Positions 4,225 through 18,504 of a DNA stretch of 32,472 bases are shown one piece after another (within the stretch, counting starts at the first letter, position 1; every line of letters begins with the position of its first letter). The notes below the pieces were generated by a model. The model was not told the DNA's origin and ran no database searches. It worked only from the letters and a program-made list of their open reading frames with translations. Origin of the DNA: a bacterium BMS3Bbin13 (GTDB taxonomy: Bacteria > Pseudomonadota > Gammaproteobacteria > 21-64-14). Both the position numbers and the translations under genes were made by a program. The stretch is taken from NCBI GenBank assembly GCA_002897735.1, contig BDTW01000029.1, forward strand, positions 1 through 32,472, read 5' to 3'.

Positions 4225-8304
<4,080 letters not shown>

Positions 8305-8315
8305 GGCGATCGGCC

Positions 8316-8363
8316 GGGCGGATATCGCCCGAAATGGCCTGACGGGACGCCCGCGGGCGTCCC
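8316..8363 (+). other. Two hairpins in the rpoB-rpoC gap
   Basis: GGGCG-GATAT-CGCCC (8316-8330) is followed by a 20-nt perfect palindrome at 8344-8363 (left arm GGGACGCCCG). They lie between the rpoB stop and the rpoC ribosome site, and no T-run follows. They probably act on mRNA stability or processing, since beta and beta' are needed in equal amounts. The function is inferred. Confidence 0.45.
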
Positions 8364-8387
8364 GGAACTTACAGGACAGGTGACGCG

Positions 8388-11300
8388 ATGAAAGATTTAC
8401 TGAATCTTCTCAAACAACAAGGGCAGGTCGATGACTTCGATGTCATCCGCATCGGTCTGGCCTCGCCCGATATGATCCACTCCTGGTCCTATGGAGAGGT
8501 CAAGAAGCCCGAGACCATCAACTACCGAACGTTCAAGCCGGAGCGCGACGGATTGTTCTGCGCCAAGATCTTCGGGCCCATCAAGGATTACGAGTGCCTG
8601 TGCGGCAGGTACAAGCGGCTCAAGCACCGCGGTGTGATCTGCGAGAAGTGCGGCGTCGAGGTGACGGTCGCGAAGGTGCGCCGCGAGCACATGGGGCATA
8701 TCGAACTGGCGAGCCCGGTCGCCCATATCTGGTTCCTGAAATCGTTGCCGTCCCGGATCGGGCTGCTTCTGGATATGACCCTGCGCGATATCGAGCGAGT
8801 GCTCTATTTCGAGGCCTTCGTCGTGGTCGATCCCGGGATGACCCAACTCGAGCGCGGCCAGCTGCTGACCGACGAGCAATACCTGGAGGCCATCGAGGAG
8901 AACGGGGACGAGTTCGACGCACGCATGGGCGCCGAGGCGGTCTACGGGTTGCTCAAGTCCCTGGATCTGCGCACGGAGGCCGTCCGGCTGCACGACGAGA
9001 TCGTGAGCACGGCGTCGGACGCGAAGCTCAAGCGCTTCTCCAAGCGCCTCAAGCTGATCGAGTCGTTCCTGGACTCCGGCAATCGCCCGGAGTGGATGAT
9101 CCTCACCGTTCTCCCGGTACTGCCGCCCGACCTGCGCCCGCTCGTGCCGCTCGACGGCGGCCGGTTCGCGACCTCGGATCTGAATGATCTGTATCGGCGG
9201 GTCATCAACCGTAACAATCGTCTCAAGCGTCTGCTCGAGCTGAACGCGCCCGACATCATCGTTCGCAACGAGAAGCGCATGTTGCAGGAATCGGTGGATG
9301 CCCTCCTGGACAACGGGCGTCGCGGCCGGGCGATCACCGGGACCAACAAGCGCCCCCTTAAATCACTTGCGGACATGATCAAGGGCAAGCAGGGGCGCTT
9401 CCGTCAGAACCTGCTGGGCAAGCGCGTCGACTATTCCGGGCGCTCGGTGATCGTGGTGGGTCCCACCCTGCGTCTGCATCAGTGCGGACTGCCCAAGAAG
9501 ATGGCGCTGGAGTTGTTCAAGCCTTTCATTTTCGGGAAGCTCCAGCTCCGCGGTCTGGCCACGACCATCAAGGCCGCGAAGAAGATGGTGGAGCGCGAGG
9601 TCGCCGAGGTCTGGGACATCCTCGAGGGAGTGATCCGTGAACATCCGGTGATGCTGAACCGGGCGCCGACGTTGCACCGTCTCGGTATCCAGGCCTTCGA
9701 GCCGGTGCTGATCGAGGGCAAGGCGATCCAGCTGCATCCCCTCGTGTGCGCGGCGTTCAATGCCGACTTCGACGGCGATCAGATGGCGGTTCATGTGCCG
9801 CTGTCGCTGGAGGCGCAAATCGAGGCGCGGGTGTTGATGATGTCCACCAACAACATCCTGTCGCCGGCGAACGGCGAGCCCATCATCGTTCCTTCCCAGG
9901 ACGTGGTGCTCGGCTTGTATTACATGACCCGTGAGGCCGTCAACGCCCCCGGCGAGGGCATGATGTTCTCCGATGTGGCCGAGGTGCATCGCGCCTACGA
10001 AAGCCGTGTGGCCGCTCTGCACGCGAAGGTCAAGGTGCGGATCCGCGAAGTCGTGAAGGGGGAGGATGGAGATCGTCGCGAAGTGCGCCGGATCGTGGAT
10101 ACCACCGTGGGCCGCGCCCTGCTCTCGGAGGTCCTTCCCGAGGGGATGTCCTTCGATCTGATCAACCAGGACATGAACAAGAAGGCGATCTCCCGTCTCA
10201 TCAATTTCGCCTACCGCGATGTCGGTCTGAAAGAGACGGTCATATTCGCCGATCAGCTTATGTATACGGGGTTCTACTACGCGACCCGATCGGGTGCGTC
10301 GTTCGGGGTGGAGGATATGGTGGTCCCGGAGCAGAAACTCGAAATCCTGGCTCGGGCCGAATCCCAGGTCAAGGACATCGAGGCCCAGTATGCGTCCGGG
10401 CTGGTGACCAACGGCGAGCGTTACAACAAGGTTGTGGACATCTGGTCGCATACCAACGATGTGGTCGCCAGGGCGATGATGGATAAGCTGGGTTCCGATG
10501 AGGTGAAAGACTCCCGGGGGAACATGGTCAAGCAGAAGTCGTTCAATCCGATCTTCATGATGGCGGACTCCGGGGCGCGCGGCAGCACCCAGCAGATTCG
10601 CCAGCTCGCCGGCATGCGCGGTTTGATGGCCAAGCCGGACGGGTCGATCATCGAGACGCCGATCACGGCCAATTTCCGGGAAGGGCTGGACGTATTGCAG
10701 TATTTCATCTCCACCCACGGCGCACGCAAGGGCCTCGCGGATACCGCGCTCAAGACGGCGAACTCGGGTTATCTCACCCGTCGGTTGGTCGACGTTGCGC
10801 AGGACCTGGTGGTGACGGAATTCGATTGCGGCACTACCGAGAGTCTGTTGATGGCGCCTTTGGTGGAGGGCGGTGACGTAGTGGAGCCGCTCCGCGATCG
10901 GGTCCTCGGACGCACCGTGACGTGCGAAGTCACCAAGCCGGGCACCGACGAGGTGCTCATCCCGGTCGGCACGCTGCTCGACGAGCACTGGGTGGCGCAA
11001 CTCGATCAGTTGGGTATCGACCGGGTCATGGTCCGCTCGCCCATCTCCTGCGCGACCCGCCATGGGGTCTGCGCGGCCTGTTATGGTCGCGATCTGGCGC
11101 GCGGGCATCGGGTAAACCTCGGTGAGGCGGTGGGGGTCATTGCCGCCCAGAGTATCGGTGAGCCGGGTACCCAGCTTACGATGCGGACCTTCCACATCGG
11201 GGGTGCCGCGTCCCGGACGGTTGCGATCAACAGCGTGGAGATCAAGTCCAAGGGGACGGTGAAGCTGCGCAACATCAAGCTGGTCAAGCACAAGAAGACC

Positions 11301-12725
11301 GGCAACTATGTGGCCGTCTCCCGTTCGGGCGAACTGGCGGTCATGGACGAGATGGGACGCGAACGCGAGCGCTACAAGGTGCCTTACGGTGCGGTCCTCA
11401 CCGTGGAGGACGGCGAGGCCGTGGAACAGGGCCAGGTCGTGGCGAATTGGGACCCGCACACGCATCCGGTGGTGACCGAAGTGGCCGGACGGTTGCGCTA
11501 CTCGGACTTCATCGAGGGGGTTACCGTGTTGCTTCAGGCCGACGAGATGACCGGCCTGAGCTCCATGGTGATCATGGATCCCAAACAGCGGGGTGCGGTG
11601 GGCAAAGACCTGCGTCCGATGATCCGCCTGCTGGACGAGAACGGCGAGGATGTGTGTATCGCCGGCACGGACAAGCCGGCCCAGTACTATCTGCCGCCGG
11701 GGGCCATCGCCAGCGTCGATGACGGCGCCTGGGTGGGTGTCGGCGACGTCATCGCCCGTATCCCGCAGGAGTCGAGCAAGACCCGCGATATCACCGGAGG
11801 TCTTCCCAGGGTGGCCGACCTGTTCGAGGCCCGCAAGCCCAAGGAGCCGGCGATCCTCGCCGAGACCTCCGGGACCATGAGCTTCGGCAAGGATACCAAG
11901 GGGCGCCAGCGCCTGATCATCACCGACGCCGAAGGCACCCAGCACGAGGAACTGATTCCGAAGTGGCGTCACATCACCGTCTTCGAGGGCGAGCACGTGG
12001 AGAAGGGCGAGCCCATCGCCGACGGGGAGCACAACCCGCACGATATTCTGCGTCTGCTGGGTGTGACCGCGCTGGCGGCCTACCTCGTCAAGGAGATCCA
12101 GGACGTCTACCGCCTCCAGGGTGTGCGGATCAATGACAAGCATATCGAGATCGTGATCCGGCAGATGTTGCGCAAGGTGGAGGTGACCGACCCGGGCGAG
12201 AGCCGTTTCCTCAAGGGGGAGCGGGCCGAGCGCGCCGGGGTGTTGGAGGAGAACGAACGGCTGGAACGTGACGGCAAGGCGCTGGCGCGCTTCGACCCGA
12301 TCCTGCTTGGAATCACCAAGGCGTCCTTGTCGACGGATTCATTCATCTCGGCGGCCTCCTTCCAGGAGACGACCCGGGTGCTGACCGAGGCGGCGGTCCG
12401 GGGACTGAGTGATCCGCTACGCGGGCTCAAGGAGAACGTGATCGTGGGCCGGCTCATTCCGGCGGGCACCGGGCAGGTCTACCATGCCGAGCGTCGCCGT
12501 CGGCGTGCGGGCGGCCTTGCGGGTCTCGGGCTGGAGACCTCCGAGGAGCCGCTCGACCCGGAGGCTGCATTCGTGAACCAGGCACCCGTGGAGCAGGCAC
12601 CCGTGGAGCAGGCACCCGTGGAGCAGGCGGCCACGGACCAGGTGGCCACGGACCAGGTGGCCACGGATCAGGTGGCCACGGATCAGGTGGCCACGGATCA
12701 GGCATTGGACGCATCGGGGTCCTGA
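8388..12725 (+). CDS. rpoC: DNA-directed RNA polymerase subunit beta' with repetitive C-terminal tail
   Basis: 1445 residues (E. coli 1407). Zinc site 1 is C70, C72, C85 and C88. The catalytic Mg motif NADFDGD is at 458-464. Zinc site 2 is C814, C888, C895 and C898. All are at the same numbers as in E. coli. The bridge-helix and trigger-loop region, with [20 protein letters not shown], is intact. After the conserved end of the protein comes an added tail of about 50 residues containing three QAPVE and five [10 protein letters not shown] units, encoded by 15-bp tandem repeats. The tail is acidic, low-complexity and probably disordered. The ATG at 8388 follows AGGACAGGTGA. Confidence 0.99.
12579..12698 (+). 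repeat. In-frame 15-bp tandem repeat at the 3' end of rpoC
   Basis: Eight consecutive 15-nt units: three identical copies of caggcacccgtggag (12579-12623), then five copies of the related caggtggccacgga[c/t], the first with a C for T change (12624-12698). The period is a multiple of three and in phase with rpoC codons, giving QAPVE x3 and Q[AV]ATD x5 (residues 1398-1437). Near-perfect identity of units points to recent expansion by slippage or unequal recombination. Confidence 0.95.
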
Positions 12726-12750
12726 TTGGACCCGACTGGCGGGACGACGC

Positions 12751-12779
12751 TTGACAGCGCAGGGCGGCGTCCTTAGAAT
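12751..12779 (+). promoter_or_regulatory. Sigma-70 promoter of the str operon
   Basis: TTGACA (12751-12756) is a perfect -35, followed by a 17-bp spacer and TAGAAT (12774-12779), a five-of-six -10. Transcription should start near 12785-12786. The bases after the -10 are GC-rich (cgcctg), like the discriminators of stringently controlled ribosomal promoters. It lies 26 nt after the rpoC stop and 214 nt before the rpsL start. Confidence 0.85.
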
Positions 12780-12780
12780 C

Positions 12781-12827
12781 GCCTGTCTTCCGACAGGCCG
12801 GGTTTTTCCGGCCTGTCGTTTGTTTTC
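12781..12827 (+). terminator. Intrinsic terminator/attenuator with competing hairpin
   Basis: GACAGGCCGG (12792-12801) and CCGGCCTGTC (12808-12817) form a perfect 10-bp stem over a GTTTTT loop, followed by the T-rich tail GTTTGTTTTC (12818-12827): a good rho-independent terminator. A second copy of GCCTGTC at 12781-12787 can pair instead with GACAGGC (12792-12798) through a TTCC loop, which would break the terminator. It may end rpoBC transcripts and also attenuate transcripts from the overlapping str promoter. Confidence 0.8.
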
Positions 12828-12992
12828 GGGCTCGGCCGGTTCCTTCGGCCGGCCTGGGGTAAGGGTCTACCGCGGTAGCGGGAAGACGACCGGCTTCGCG
12901 CAGAAAGCCTGGGCGAGGAGGGGTCGCTTGCTCTCGTTTTTCCGTGTCCGGGCCCGGATTACGGTCACCCGCAGAGTGGAGTCGGGGATGTC

Positions 12993-13367
12993 ATGACGAC
13001 GATCAACCAACTGGTGCGCAATGCGCGCACGCGCAAGCGGGAAAAGAGTAAGGTGCCGGCGCTGGAGGGCTCGCCCCAGAAGCGCGGCGTATGCACTCGC
13101 GTCTACACGACTACGCCGAAAAAGCCGAACTCCGCGCTTCGGAAGGTGGCCCGCGTACGCCTCACCAACGGCTACGAGGTCACCACTTACATCGGTGGCG
13201 AGGGACACAACCTTCAGGAGCACTCGCTGGTCCTGATCCGCGGCGGGCGCGTAAAGGATCTTCCCGGTGTGCGCTACCATGTGGTGCGCGGGAGCCTGGA
13301 CACCGCCGGCGTGAACAATCGCAAGCAGGGTCGTTCCAAGTACGGTGTCAAGCGACCGAAGAGTTGA
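12993..13367 (+). CDS. rpsL: 30S ribosomal protein S12
   Basis: 124 residues, the same length as E. coli S12. It forms part of the decoding centre. [19 protein letters not shown] and [12 protein letters not shown] are intact; K43 and K88, where streptomycin-resistance changes usually occur, are wild-type, and D89, the usual methylthiolation site, is present. GGAG at 12978-12981 is the ribosome site. It is the first gene of the str operon, after a 5' leader of about 200 nt. Confidence 0.99.
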
Positions 13368-13418
13368 GTCGTGTCCCGGGCGTGCCCCGGTGGATCCGCA
13401 GGAGCCGAGTAGAAGCCA

Positions 13419-13889
13419 ATGCCCAGACGAGGAATACTCCAGCAGCAGCCGATCCTGCCGGATCCGAAATACGGCAGTGAGACGCTGGCCAAGTTCATCA
13501 ATATGATTATGTACAGCGGCAAAAAGGCCGCCGCCGAGCGCATCGTCTACGGTGCACTGGACCAGATCATCGCGAAGGGAAAGGGCGACCCGGTTCAGAT
13601 CCTGGACCACGCACTGGACAACGTGCGACCCGTCGTGGAGGTCAAGTCCCGGCGCGTCGGCGGTGCGACCTACCAGGTGCCGGTCGAAGTGCGGCCGGTG
13701 CGCCGGGCGTCGCTTGCCATGCGCTGGCTCATCGATGCGGCCCGTCGCCGCGGCGAGAAATCCATGGTGGGACGCCTGGCCAACGAGTTGATGGATGCGG
13801 CCGAGAGCCGCGGTGCCGCGGTCAAGAAGCGCGAAGACACGCATCGCATGGCCGAGGCCAACAAGGCTTTCTCGCACTATCGGTGGTGA
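13419..13889 (+). CDS. rpsG: 30S ribosomal protein S7
   Basis: 156 residues, starting [20 protein letters not shown] and ending HYRW. S7 nucleates assembly of the 30S head and lines the E site. In E. coli it represses the str operon by binding the rpsL-rpsG gap; here that gap is 51 nt and no operator was identified. It has the common short length rather than the extended C-terminus of E. coli K-12. Confidence 0.99.
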
Positions 13890-14055
13890 GACGACGCGGC
13901 TCGCCCGTTGTGCGGCGGCCTGGATAGAGTATGAGCATCAGGGTCGACAGAGAGATTCATGCGAACGGCGCCCGGACTGCGGTCCGTGCGGTCCGTCGCG
14001 CACACCCGGCGACGCCGGGTATGGTTCGCCGGTAGGCGGGTACGAGGTCCGGATC

Positions 14056-16155
14056 GTGGCACGCAAGACACCCATCGAGCGCTATCGTAACATCGGCATC
14101 GCCGCCCATATCGATGCCGGTAAGACTACGACGACCGAGCGCATCCTGTTCTATACGGGCATCTCCCACAAGATGGGCGAGGTTCATGATGGCGCGGCCG
14201 TCATGGACTGGATGGAGCAGGAGCAGGAGCGGGGCATCACGATCACCTCCGCGGCGACGACCTGCTATTGGCAGGGCATGGACAAGCAGTTTCCGCAGCA
14301 CCGGATCAATATCATCGACACTCCGGGGCATGTCGACTTCACCATCGAGGTGGAGCGCTCCATGCGTGTGCTCGACGGGGTGGTGGCCGTATTTTGTGCG
14401 GTCGGCGGTGTGGAGCCGCAGTCCGAGACGGTGTGGCGGCAGGCGAACCGATACGGTGTGCCGCGCATGGCGTTCGTCAACAAGATGGACCGTATAGGGG
14501 CCGATTTCCTGCGCGTCGTGCAGCAGATACGCGAGCGGGTCGGGGCCAATGCGGTTCCCATTCAACTCCCCATCGGGGTCGAAGACGGATTCATCGGCGT
14601 GGTCGACTTGGTTGCAATGCGCGCGATCTATTGGGATGACGCGGCGCTGGGTGCCAGCTACGAGGCCCGCGAGATCCCCGCCGAGATGGTCGAGGCCTGC
14701 ACCCAGTGGCGCGAGACCATGGTCGAGGCCGCGGCGGAGGCCAATGAGGAACTGATGGAGAAGTATATCGAGACCGGTGATCTCGATGCCAAGGAGATCG
14801 TGCGGGGTCTGCGTGCGCGCACTCTGACGAACGAGATCGTCCCGGTCCTGTGCGGCTCCGCATTCAAGAACAAGGGCGTGCAGGCGCTGCTGGATGCGGT
14901 CGTCGAACTGATGCCCTCGCCGTTGGACGTGCCTGCGATCAAGGGCCATATGGACGATGCCGAGGGTACCGTCACCGAGCGACGCCCGTCCGACGATGAA
15001 CCCTTCTCGGCGCTCGCATTCAAGATCGCGACCGATCCGTTCGTCGGCAGCCTCACCTATATCCGTGTCTACTCGGGCGTGATCAATTCCGGTGACACCG
15101 TCTACAACTCCGTCAAGGGCAAGAAGGAGCGCATCGGACGCCTCCTCCATATGCATGCCAATCATCGGGAAGAGACCAAGGAAGTGCGCGCCGGCGACAT
15201 TGCCGCGTGCGTCGGACTCAAGGACGTGACCACCGGTGACACCCTTTGCGATATCAATAAGGTCATCATCCTGGAGCGCATGGAGTTTCCCGAGCCGGTC
15301 ATCTCCCAGGCGGTCGAGCCGAAGACCAAGGCCGATCAGGAGAAGATGGGGGTCGCGCTGCAGAAGCTGGCCCAGGAGGATCCCTCGTTCCGAGTGCACA
15401 CCGACGAGGAATCCGGCCAGACCATCATCTCCGGCATGGGCGAGTTGCACCTGGAGATCCTCGTCGACCGCATGCGCCGTGAGTTCAAGGTCGAGGCCAA
15501 TGTCGGCAAGCCGCAGGTGGCGTATCGCGAGACGATTCGCAAGAGCGTCGAGCAGGAAGGCAAGTTCGTGCGGCAGACGGGCGGCCGCGGTCAGTATGGT
15601 CATGTCTGGCTGCGGATCGAGCCCAGAGAGCCCGGCGAGGGCTACGAATTCAAGAACGCGATCGTCGGCGGGGTGGTGCCGCGGGAGTACATCGGCGCCG
15701 TCGACAAGGGTATCCAGGGACAGATGCAGAACGGGGTGGTCGCGGGCTATCCGGTGGTCGATGTCAAGGTGACGTTGTTCGACGGCTCCTATCACGAGGT
15801 CGACTCCTCGGAGATGGCGTTCAAGATCGCCGGCTCCATGGCGTTCAAGGACGGTGCCCGCAAGGCGAGCCCGGTACTGCTCGAGCCGATCATGAAAGTC
15901 GAGGTGGTGACCCCAGAGGAATACATGGGCGACGTCATGGGTGATCTGAACCGGCGTCGCGGTTTGGTGCAGGGTATGGAGGAGGCCCCGGCGGGCAAGA
16001 TCATTCGTGCCGAGGTCCCGCTGGCGGAGATGTTCGGTTACGCGACCGATCTGCGCTCCGCGACCCAGGGCCGCGCCACCTACACGATGGAATTCTCGAA
16101 GTACGCCGAGGCGCCCGCGAATATCGCCGAACAGGTGGTCAAGAAGGCCTCCTGA
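14056..16155 (+). CDS. fusA: Elongation factor G
   Basis: 699 residues (E. coli 704), starting at GTG 14056 with (M)[24 protein letters not shown] at 14044-14047 is the ribosome site. It is the GTPase that drives ribosomal translocation. GTPase motifs are AHIDAGKT (17-24), the switch [17 protein letters not shown] (88-92) and NKMD (142-145). Domain IV has [15 protein letters not shown]. In-frame sequence upstream back to 13795 overlaps rpsG and is not part of the protein. The gap from rpsG is 166 nt. Confidence 0.99.
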
Positions 16156-16222
16156 GGCCCGTTTCCAGACAAAGCCGCGAATATCGCAAGTCTTTGAGTT
16201 TTTAGATAAGAGGTATACGACC

Positions 16223-17413
<1,191 letters not shown>

Positions 17414-17468
17414 GGGCGCAGCCGAACGCGCCGGTGGTCCCACTTTTCGCAACCAAGGCTCAATGACA

Positions 17469-17783
17469 ATGTCGACCAACCAGAGAATTCGGATTCGACT
17501 CAAATCCTTCGATCATCGCCTTATCGATCAGTCGGCGCGGGAGATCGTCGAGACCGCGCGACGGACCGGCGCCCGGGTGTGCGGACCGATCCCGTTGCCG
17601 ACCAAGAAAGAACGCTGGACCCTGTTGATTTCTCCGCACAAGGACAAGGATGCACGGGATCAGTATGAGATTCGCACGCACAAGCGGCTGCTCGACATCG
17701 TCGAACCCACGGACAAGACCGTGGATGCCTTGATGAAGCTCGATCTGGCCGCAGGCGTGGATGTGCAGATCAAGCTGAACTAG
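17469..17783 (+). CDS. rpsJ: 30S ribosomal protein S10
   Basis: 104 residues (E. coli 103): [20 protein letters not shown] through [10 protein letters not shown]10 is in the 30S head and is also the NusE partner of NusB and NusG. Two in-frame ATGs, 17463 and 17469, are possible. AAGG at 17455-17458 is 4 or 10 nt away, and the second gives the usual length. Only about 50 nt separate it from tuf, so it is probably co-transcribed with the str operon. Confidence 0.96.
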
Positions 17784-17847
17784 AGTACGGGCGGCGGAGG
17801 CGGGACCGTCCCGCTCCGCGGCACCCGGATGGATCAAGAGGTTCAAG

Positions 17848-18504
17848 ATGACAATCGGTTTGGTAGGGCGCAAGGCCGGCATGACCCGGATCTTCTCCGA
17901 AGACGGGGTCTCGGTGCCGGTGACCGTCATCGAGGTGGAGCCGAACTGCGTCACCCAGGTCAAGACCGTGGAAACCGACGGTTACCGCGCGGTGCAGGTG
18001 ACCACCGGGGGGCGTCGCCCGATTCGGGTGCGTAAGCCCGCGGCGGGTCATTTCGCGAAGGCCGGCGTCGAGGCCGGTCGCGGAGTGTGGGAATTCCGGC
18101 TGGAGGAGACCGAAGGGCGGGAACTCGCGCTCGGGGCGGAACTGCGCGTGGATCTGTTCAGCGCGGGCCAGAAAGTGGACGTCGCCGGTACGACGATCGG
18201 CAAGGGCTTCGCCGGGACCGTGAAACGGCATCACTTCGCCATCAAGGACATGACACACGGCAACTCGCTGTCCCACCGCACGCCCGGATCGATCGGCCAG
18301 CGCCAGACACCGGGGCGGGTATTCAAGGGCAAACGGATGTCGGGGCATCTCGGTAACGTGCGCCGCTCCATTCAGAACCTGGAGGTCGTCCGCGTCGACG
18401 CCGAGCGCAATCTGCTGCTGGTCAAGGGGGCGGTACCGGGTGCCCGCGGAGGCGATGTCATCGTGCGTCCGGCCGTGCGCCGGCGCGGGGAGGAGAGTTC
18501 GTGA
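17848..18504 (+). CDS. rplC: 50S ribosomal protein L3
   Basis: 218 residues (E. coli 209). It starts [20 protein letters not shown]; the conserved [20 protein letters not shown] contains the glutamine that PrmB methylates in E. coli. L3 is an early assembly protein near the peptidyl transferase centre. The short C-terminal extension ([12 protein letters not shown]) is unremarkable. The TGA overlaps the rplD start by one base, indicating translational coupling. Confidence 0.98.

Follow-up and report, generated by a model that had tools for sequence, protein, structure and literature searches.

A conserved terminator-like hairpin just downstream of the str promoter, a candidate terminator of the rpoBC unit in Gammaproteobacteria

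Between the str promoter and rpsL of bacterium BMS3Bbin13 there is a terminator-like hairpin which, as judged by comparison of genomes, is a member of a sequence-and-structure family recurring upstream of rpsL in many related bacteria. The anatomy of the hairpin, its conservation, the covariation of its arms and its link to rpoC adjacency are established at the level of sequence. By a modest measure we favor the view that it is a promoter-proximal intrinsic terminator, which would close the rpoBC unit while lying within the first 40 nt of the str transcript. The hairpin thus sits where the operons for RNA polymerase and for ribosomal proteins and elongation factors meet, and if it works as proposed it would set how far rpoBC transcripts reach into str and act as an early check on the str transcripts themselves.

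The window (the whole stretch of DNA analyzed, 32,472 nt) carries the rpoBC and str clusters at a G+C content of 63-66%. It belongs to a genome of 2.69 Mb in 62 contigs, and one further genome of the same genus (the congener) was retrieved. Relatives of its S7 protein, among the 80 listed, were mostly Gammaproteobacteria, together with Burkholderiales and a few others, and on this basis we take the organism for a gammaproteobacterium. The coordinates of the features are collected in Table 1. The rpoC stop codon and the -35 hexamer of the str promoter are separated by 25 nt, and no separate terminator-like hairpin was found in this gap. At the 3' end of rpoC (12579-12700) we also observed 15-nt tandem repeats, which would encode a repeated five-residue tail.

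Table 1. Features at the rpoC-str junction, in positions of the window
Feature	Position	Strand	Basis or remark
rpoC	8388..12725	+	ORF of 1445 aa; gene upstream of the str promoter
-35 hexamer TTGACA, str promoter	12751..12756	+	sequence; listed beside other str promoters
-10 hexamer TAGAAT, str promoter	12774..12779	+	sequence; listed beside other str promoters
Segment 1 GCCTGTC	12781..12787	+	covers the promoter discriminator and start; can pair with 12792-12798; seen here only in this genus
Predicted transcription start (inferred)	12786..12787	+	C at position 8 after the -10 in 93/115 str promoters
Terminator-like hairpin, core GACAGGCCGG / CCGGCCTGTC	12791..12818	+	12 pairs; folding, covariation, model matches
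T-rich tail TTTGTTTTC	12819..12827	+	sequence; T-rich tails in relatives too
rpsL (S12)	12993..13367	+	str operon gene 1

The str promoter has 11 of 12 consensus bases and a 17-nt spacer, and TTGACA-N17-TAGAAT lies exactly where an earlier sequence-only reading of this DNA had put it. That reading placed the start near 12785-12786. In the class, 93 of 115 str promoters have C eight positions past the -10 and 97 have T or C at position 7, from which we estimate the start at about 12786-12787, and RNA initiated at the str promoter would consequently be without nearly all of segment 1, which covers positions 2-8. The pyrimidine-rich start region (12786-12790) is strongly conserved, with a pyrimidine at position 9 in 108 of the 115 class genomes. 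Lax scans of 8300-18000 showed no enrichment of promoter-like sites (2 vs. 1.8 expected) or of terminator-like sites (7 vs. 4.2 expected), and the junction site was the best scorer in both.

The three segments described earlier (12781-12787, 12792-12801 and 12808-12817) were confirmed to the base, and segment 1 is indeed able to pair alternatively with segment 2. The hairpin of segments 2 and 3 and its T-rich tail stood as described, except that the stem is longer than noted; it has 12 pairs (12791-12802 with 12807-12818), closed by a TTTT loop and followed by the tail TTTGTTTTCG. In the nine nucleotides directly after the stem there are seven T's, with one G interrupting. Folding gave -23.1 to -24.8 kcal/mol for this 2-3 hairpin (z -6.3 and -7.7) and none of 200 shuffled sequences was equally stable. 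Both hallmarks of an intrinsic terminator, a GC-rich hairpin with a short loop and a T-rich tail directly 3' of the stem, are present. As proposed before, RNA started at the str promoter is predicted to lack segment 1 and to run into a strong terminator-like hairpin before it is about 40 nt long. The attenuators described in rpsL leaders are likewise defined by a terminator-like hairpin that follows the str promoter and precedes rpsL; of the alternative antiterminator that these would carry within the str transcript none was found, with about 5 nt ahead of the stem if the start is as inferred.

To see how far the hairpin extends beyond this genome we analyzed 110 loci (L002-L111, L001 being a repeat of the window), 83 of which met our promoter and start rules. 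These 83 are not independent, because the window, its congener and several Pseudomonas are among them. With a strict score a hairpin was found within 70 nt of the str -10 in 42 of the 83 leaders, compared to a mean of 0.43 (max 3) in 100 shuffles, 2/83 in upstream stretches and 1/19 in stretches further downstream. The strict score was chosen after a lax one, which gave 52/83 leaders against 22.45 (max 31) in shuffles. In 38 of the 42 strong leaders the 5' arm of the hairpin begins 9-17 nt past the -10, and a subset of the hairpin leaders shares the core GACAGG...CCTGTC, which was present in 46 of 122 class genomes. An alignment of 17 rows showed changes on both sides in 7 of the 12 pairs, with 25 two-sided-change cells vs. 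a shuffled mean of 7.5, and 93.5% of the cells were paired vs. at most 41% when the arms were slid. The lower stem CAG...CTG was invariant in 17/17 rows and the pairs of the upper stem vary. A lower stem that stays constant while the upper stem drifts hints that something may read the sequence, and it counts against a plain terminator, since a plain terminator needs no such sequence. The core may also resemble a 16S rRNA helix.

A covariance model of core and tail (R1) matched 41 of 143 class genomes at E<=0.01, with one match in each. Each of the 30 matches that were fetched is flanked by the str promoter and S12, with rpoC found further upstream, and the remaining 11 are, by their coordinates, directly upstream of the S12 match. 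Of the 30 fetched genomes, 18 were outside the genomes used for the model; named records had supplied four of the training rows, and all 18 printed leaders differ from these four. Against 20 of the loci, R1 gave strong matches to L035, L037, L060 and L107, all of them training rows, and weak ones to four Xanthomonas-like loci (E 0.03-0.42), and the other 12 loci, enterobacterial and Pseudomonas ones among them, were unmatched. In a draw of 200 genomes of the phylum there were three matches at E<=0.001. Two were this genome and one of the same class (G366, in the str leader). The third was in another class (G476), with no rpsL or rpoC match in the 1501 bases fetched there, and the draw thus gave no case of the hairpin at str outside the class. 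Within the present genome the inverted repeat GACAGGC-N3-14-GCCTGTC occurs once, which rules out a genome-wide family of the same repeat. The T-tail is interrupted in 51 of the 54 strong hairpins of the class, as it is in the window, and such a tail may make for a weak terminator.

The hairpin is linked to the position of rpoC. An S12 match was found in 122 of the 143 class genomes, with rpoC adjacent in 92, non-adjacent in 28 and undecided in 2, which had too little upstream DNA; in 7 of the 122 no promoter was found by the rule used. Adjacency was scored by tblastn, non-adjacent meaning that there was no rpoC match in the 541-1500 bases upstream of S12. Strong hairpins were present in 51/92 adjacent vs. 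3/28 non-adjacent genomes (Fisher p 2e-5, shared ancestry not factored in) and, when genomes with a promoter were taken alone, in 51/90 vs. 3/24 (p 1e-4). The link was seen at G+C >=0.45 (47/70 adjacent vs. 2/13 non-adjacent, p 0.001), both at 0.45-0.55 (16/25 vs. 1/8, p 0.017) and above 0.55 (31/45 vs. 1/5, p 0.050), and was not seen below 0.45 (4/22 vs. 1/15, p 0.63). Among adjacent genomes with a promoter the hairpin tended to be rarer where rpoC has a separate terminator (4/13 vs. 47/77 without one, p 0.067; 5/14 vs. 46/76, p 0.14, at a laxer score). The genome of the window is outside the group with such a separate terminator. Taken as sequence patterns, these results fit a terminator of the rpoBC unit. 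They also suggest a sorting of transcripts opposite to that proposed in the sequence-only reading, with the hairpin stopping read-through from rpoC. The strong hairpin was missing from 41 of the 92 adjacent genomes. It was kept in 4/10 loci with a separate rpoC terminator in the overlapping set of 83, and the core also occurs in two non-adjacent genomes (G113 and G117), which indicates that closing rpoBC is not its sole role.

Polymerase reading through from rpoC would reach the hairpin and its T-rich tail shortly after passing the str promoter, and polymerase started at the str promoter would make the same 12-pair hairpin and then the same tail. From both sources a fraction of the polymerases should stop at about 12822-12827, and the hairpin would in this way close the rpoBC unit and serve as an early gate on the str transcript. 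Enough str transcripts might pass by virtue of a strong promoter, a leaky interrupted tail or a factor. Termination itself, its efficiency for each source and the way in which enough str transcripts pass are what we infer from the patterns above.

The arrangement resembles several known systems. It is like operon-closing intrinsic (Rho-independent) terminators in its GC-rich 12-pair stem, short loop, T-rich tail and location directly after rpoC, and unlike them in that it lies downstream of the promoter of the next operon, whose own transcripts must pass it, and in that the sequence of the lower stem is conserved. Like the rpsL-leader attenuators (PMC2965389; RF01773 for Pseudomonas), it is a terminator-like hairpin followed by a T-tail in the 5' leader preceding rpsL-rpsG-fusA-tuf. 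The study of these attenuators (Naville and Gautheret 2010, PMC2965389) reports neither a sequence nor a structure that is conserved among them globally, and draws putative antiterminators. Here, by contrast, the core is common to many families, with one sequence family in 41 of the 143 sampled class genomes, and the str RNA leaves little room for an antiterminator. On sequence grounds the best reading is that the hairpin is a sequence-conserved relative of these published attenuators. It does not belong to RF01773 (rpsL_pseudo) itself: there was no match in the window at the gathering score, nor at E<=10 in 12600-13100, and none of 15 genomes had a match above the cut-off (two weak ones were elsewhere); among the 20 loci the Pseudomonas locus L040 was the only match. 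Rfam 15 as a whole gave no match to the hairpin site at gathering scores, and when matches below the cut-off were admitted (E up to 10) the best was rsmX with 19.2 bits against a cut-off of 56.

Other elements near rpsL have been reported, which we know from parts of the respective papers. The Candidatus Pelagibacter ubique rpsL motif is also located between rpoC and rpsL, but is a three-stem junction found in that organism and in marine metagenomes only, in contrast to the simple terminator hairpin seen here (PMC2704228). In Shewanella, likewise a gammaproteobacterium, a structured motif in the rpsL 5'-UTR has been predicted (PMC2659441). Repression of the E. coli str operon by S7 regulates the same operon, but acts at the rpsL-rpsG spacer and not in the leader (PMC10931766). 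Enteropathogenic E. coli in stationary phase has been reported to make rpsL RNA with a premature 3' end, arising by termination or processing, and to show a shorter rpsL transcript on northern blots, the position of the premature end being unstated in the portion consulted (PMC10687069). The portions of PMC7247131 (part of Table 1) and PMC10931766 that we consulted contain no such leader element, and in the open-access literature we found no publication on the GACAGG...CCTGTC core.

The sequence-only reading had seen in the junction a switch, in which segments 1 and 2 pair in the RNA reading through from rpoC and block the terminator, while str RNA, lacking segment 1, terminates. We consider this quite unlikely. 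The 1-2 hairpin is a perfect 7-bp one of -11.3 kcal/mol, is the first to form in read-through RNA, and segment 1 is unchanged in the congener; however, it lies there within an invariant run with no compensatory change, and identity in both congeners is no evidence for covariation. That the three arms would co-vary in relatives did not hold, as arms 2 and 3 covary and a matching arm 1 was found at the junction in 2/369 genomes, both of one genus. The pattern GCCTGTC-N3-6-GACAGGC-N3-16-GCCTGTC as such occurred in 3/369 genomes, namely the window genome, its congener and G271, where it is inside a reading frame whose translated flanks showed neither rpsL nor rpoC. Among the 42 hairpin leaders, and likewise among 54 class leaders, no further 7-bp match by Watson-Crick pairing was seen, with L080 attaining seven solely through a G-U pair. 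Seven matching nucleotides were reached in 396 of 20,000 shuffles of the window's own upstream sequence and in 7 of 2809 swaps between species; from the latter the window genome was excluded as donor, since its segment 1 also matches the shared arms of other species and inflates the null. For a single locus the match is therefore mildly unusual, and one such case among the 54 hairpin leaders examined comes as no surprise. Simple folding models (37 C, fixed number of hidden nucleotides) give some room for a delay. With 12 nt hidden, read-through RNA would keep 1-2 as its most stable structure while the polymerase moves up to 12826, almost through the tail, and 2-3 would take over from 12828, vs. 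from 12824 in str RNA. Passing from 1-2 to 2-3 meets a barrier of 9-13 kcal/mol when the RNA is exposed up to 12811 and of 2.5-3.4 kcal/mol when it is exposed up to 12815; at this latter point 1-2 together with a 4-bp toehold hairpin (-16.5 kcal/mol) is within 0.8 of 2-3 (-17.3 kcal/mol), and at full exposure 2-3 reaches -24.8 kcal/mol. The completed terminator has a driving force of -20.3 kcal/mol without upstream RNA and of -14.5 kcal/mol with it, a loss of 5.8 kcal/mol that is unexceptional (rank 9 of 55; the 53 other leaders have a mean of 3.6, sd 2.7, max 15.4), and in the congener the loss is 10.7 kcal/mol. With the terminator still favored by about 14.5 kcal/mol, read-through RNA should eventually form it, and what the nascent model leaves is a possible partial and brief antitermination in this genus. 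Read-through RNA would thus meet the hairpin as claimed, but its escape by 1-2 pairing is weakly supported at best; and different treatment of the two sources agrees with the modeled delay of 2-3, whereas the adjacency link points to the reverse sorting. On account of the genus-limited pattern, the ordinary energy loss and the lead of the terminator we reject read-through antitermination as the main function, and segment 1 is probably a GC-rich discriminator and at most a minor antiterminator. The largest loss of driving force, 15.4 kcal/mol, was observed in the str leader of L132 (G092), where the promoter spacer region pairs with the 5' arm, and a read-through switch is more plausible there than in the window.

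Readings that make more of the conserved sequence, or of the position of the stem, were also weighed against a terminator of the rpoBC unit. If a protein or elongation factor recognized the GACAGG...CCTGTC hairpin and set the passage of str-initiated transcripts, the conservation beyond pairing (the invariant CAG/CTG and the spread of the core in the class) and the single R1 match in 41/41 genomes would be explained, and both the attenuators proposed before rpsL elsewhere (PMC2965389) and the early, condition-dependent 3' end of rpsL RNA in enteropathogenic E. coli (PMC10687069), as far as the parts consulted describe them, would be in line with it. Such a regulated attenuator does not account for the association with rpoC adjacency, however, and the few nucleotides ahead of the stem leave no room for the usual antiterminator; we regard it as unlikely, if worth keeping in mind. 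A similarly low standing is given to the broader idea that many Gammaproteobacteria have in this hairpin an undescribed cis-regulatory RNA, whose lower stem is read by a factor, which gates str and which also ends rpoBC transcripts. If true, it would link the synthesis of RNA polymerase to that of ribosomes and EF-Tu at one site. The hairpin could instead shield the str mRNA from decay as a 5' stabilizing stem, without termination, as its start about 5 nt from the predicted transcription start and its steady distance from the -10 in strong leaders would allow. The one-sided T-rich tail kept in relatives and the link to rpoC adjacency make this improbable, more so than a switch, although our hairpin finder demanded a T-rich tail, so that only the R1 matches and the alignment are partly independent evidence for it. 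As DNA, the perfect and conserved inverted repeat, found once in the genome, might be a protein-binding palindrome at the str promoter. Of the one-sided changes in the alignment, 13 keep a standard (wobble) pair and 13 break the pair, where about one sixth would be expected to keep it by chance. With this pattern, and with a T-tail on one side only, we reject such a DNA operator as very improbable indeed.

Further downstream in the str leader of the window there is a second, weaker terminator-like hairpin (12918-12944) with the tail GTTTTTCC. This stretch is largely retained in the congener (L003), with some base changes, and the congener leader has about 30 extra bases, partly palindromic, which are absent from the window.
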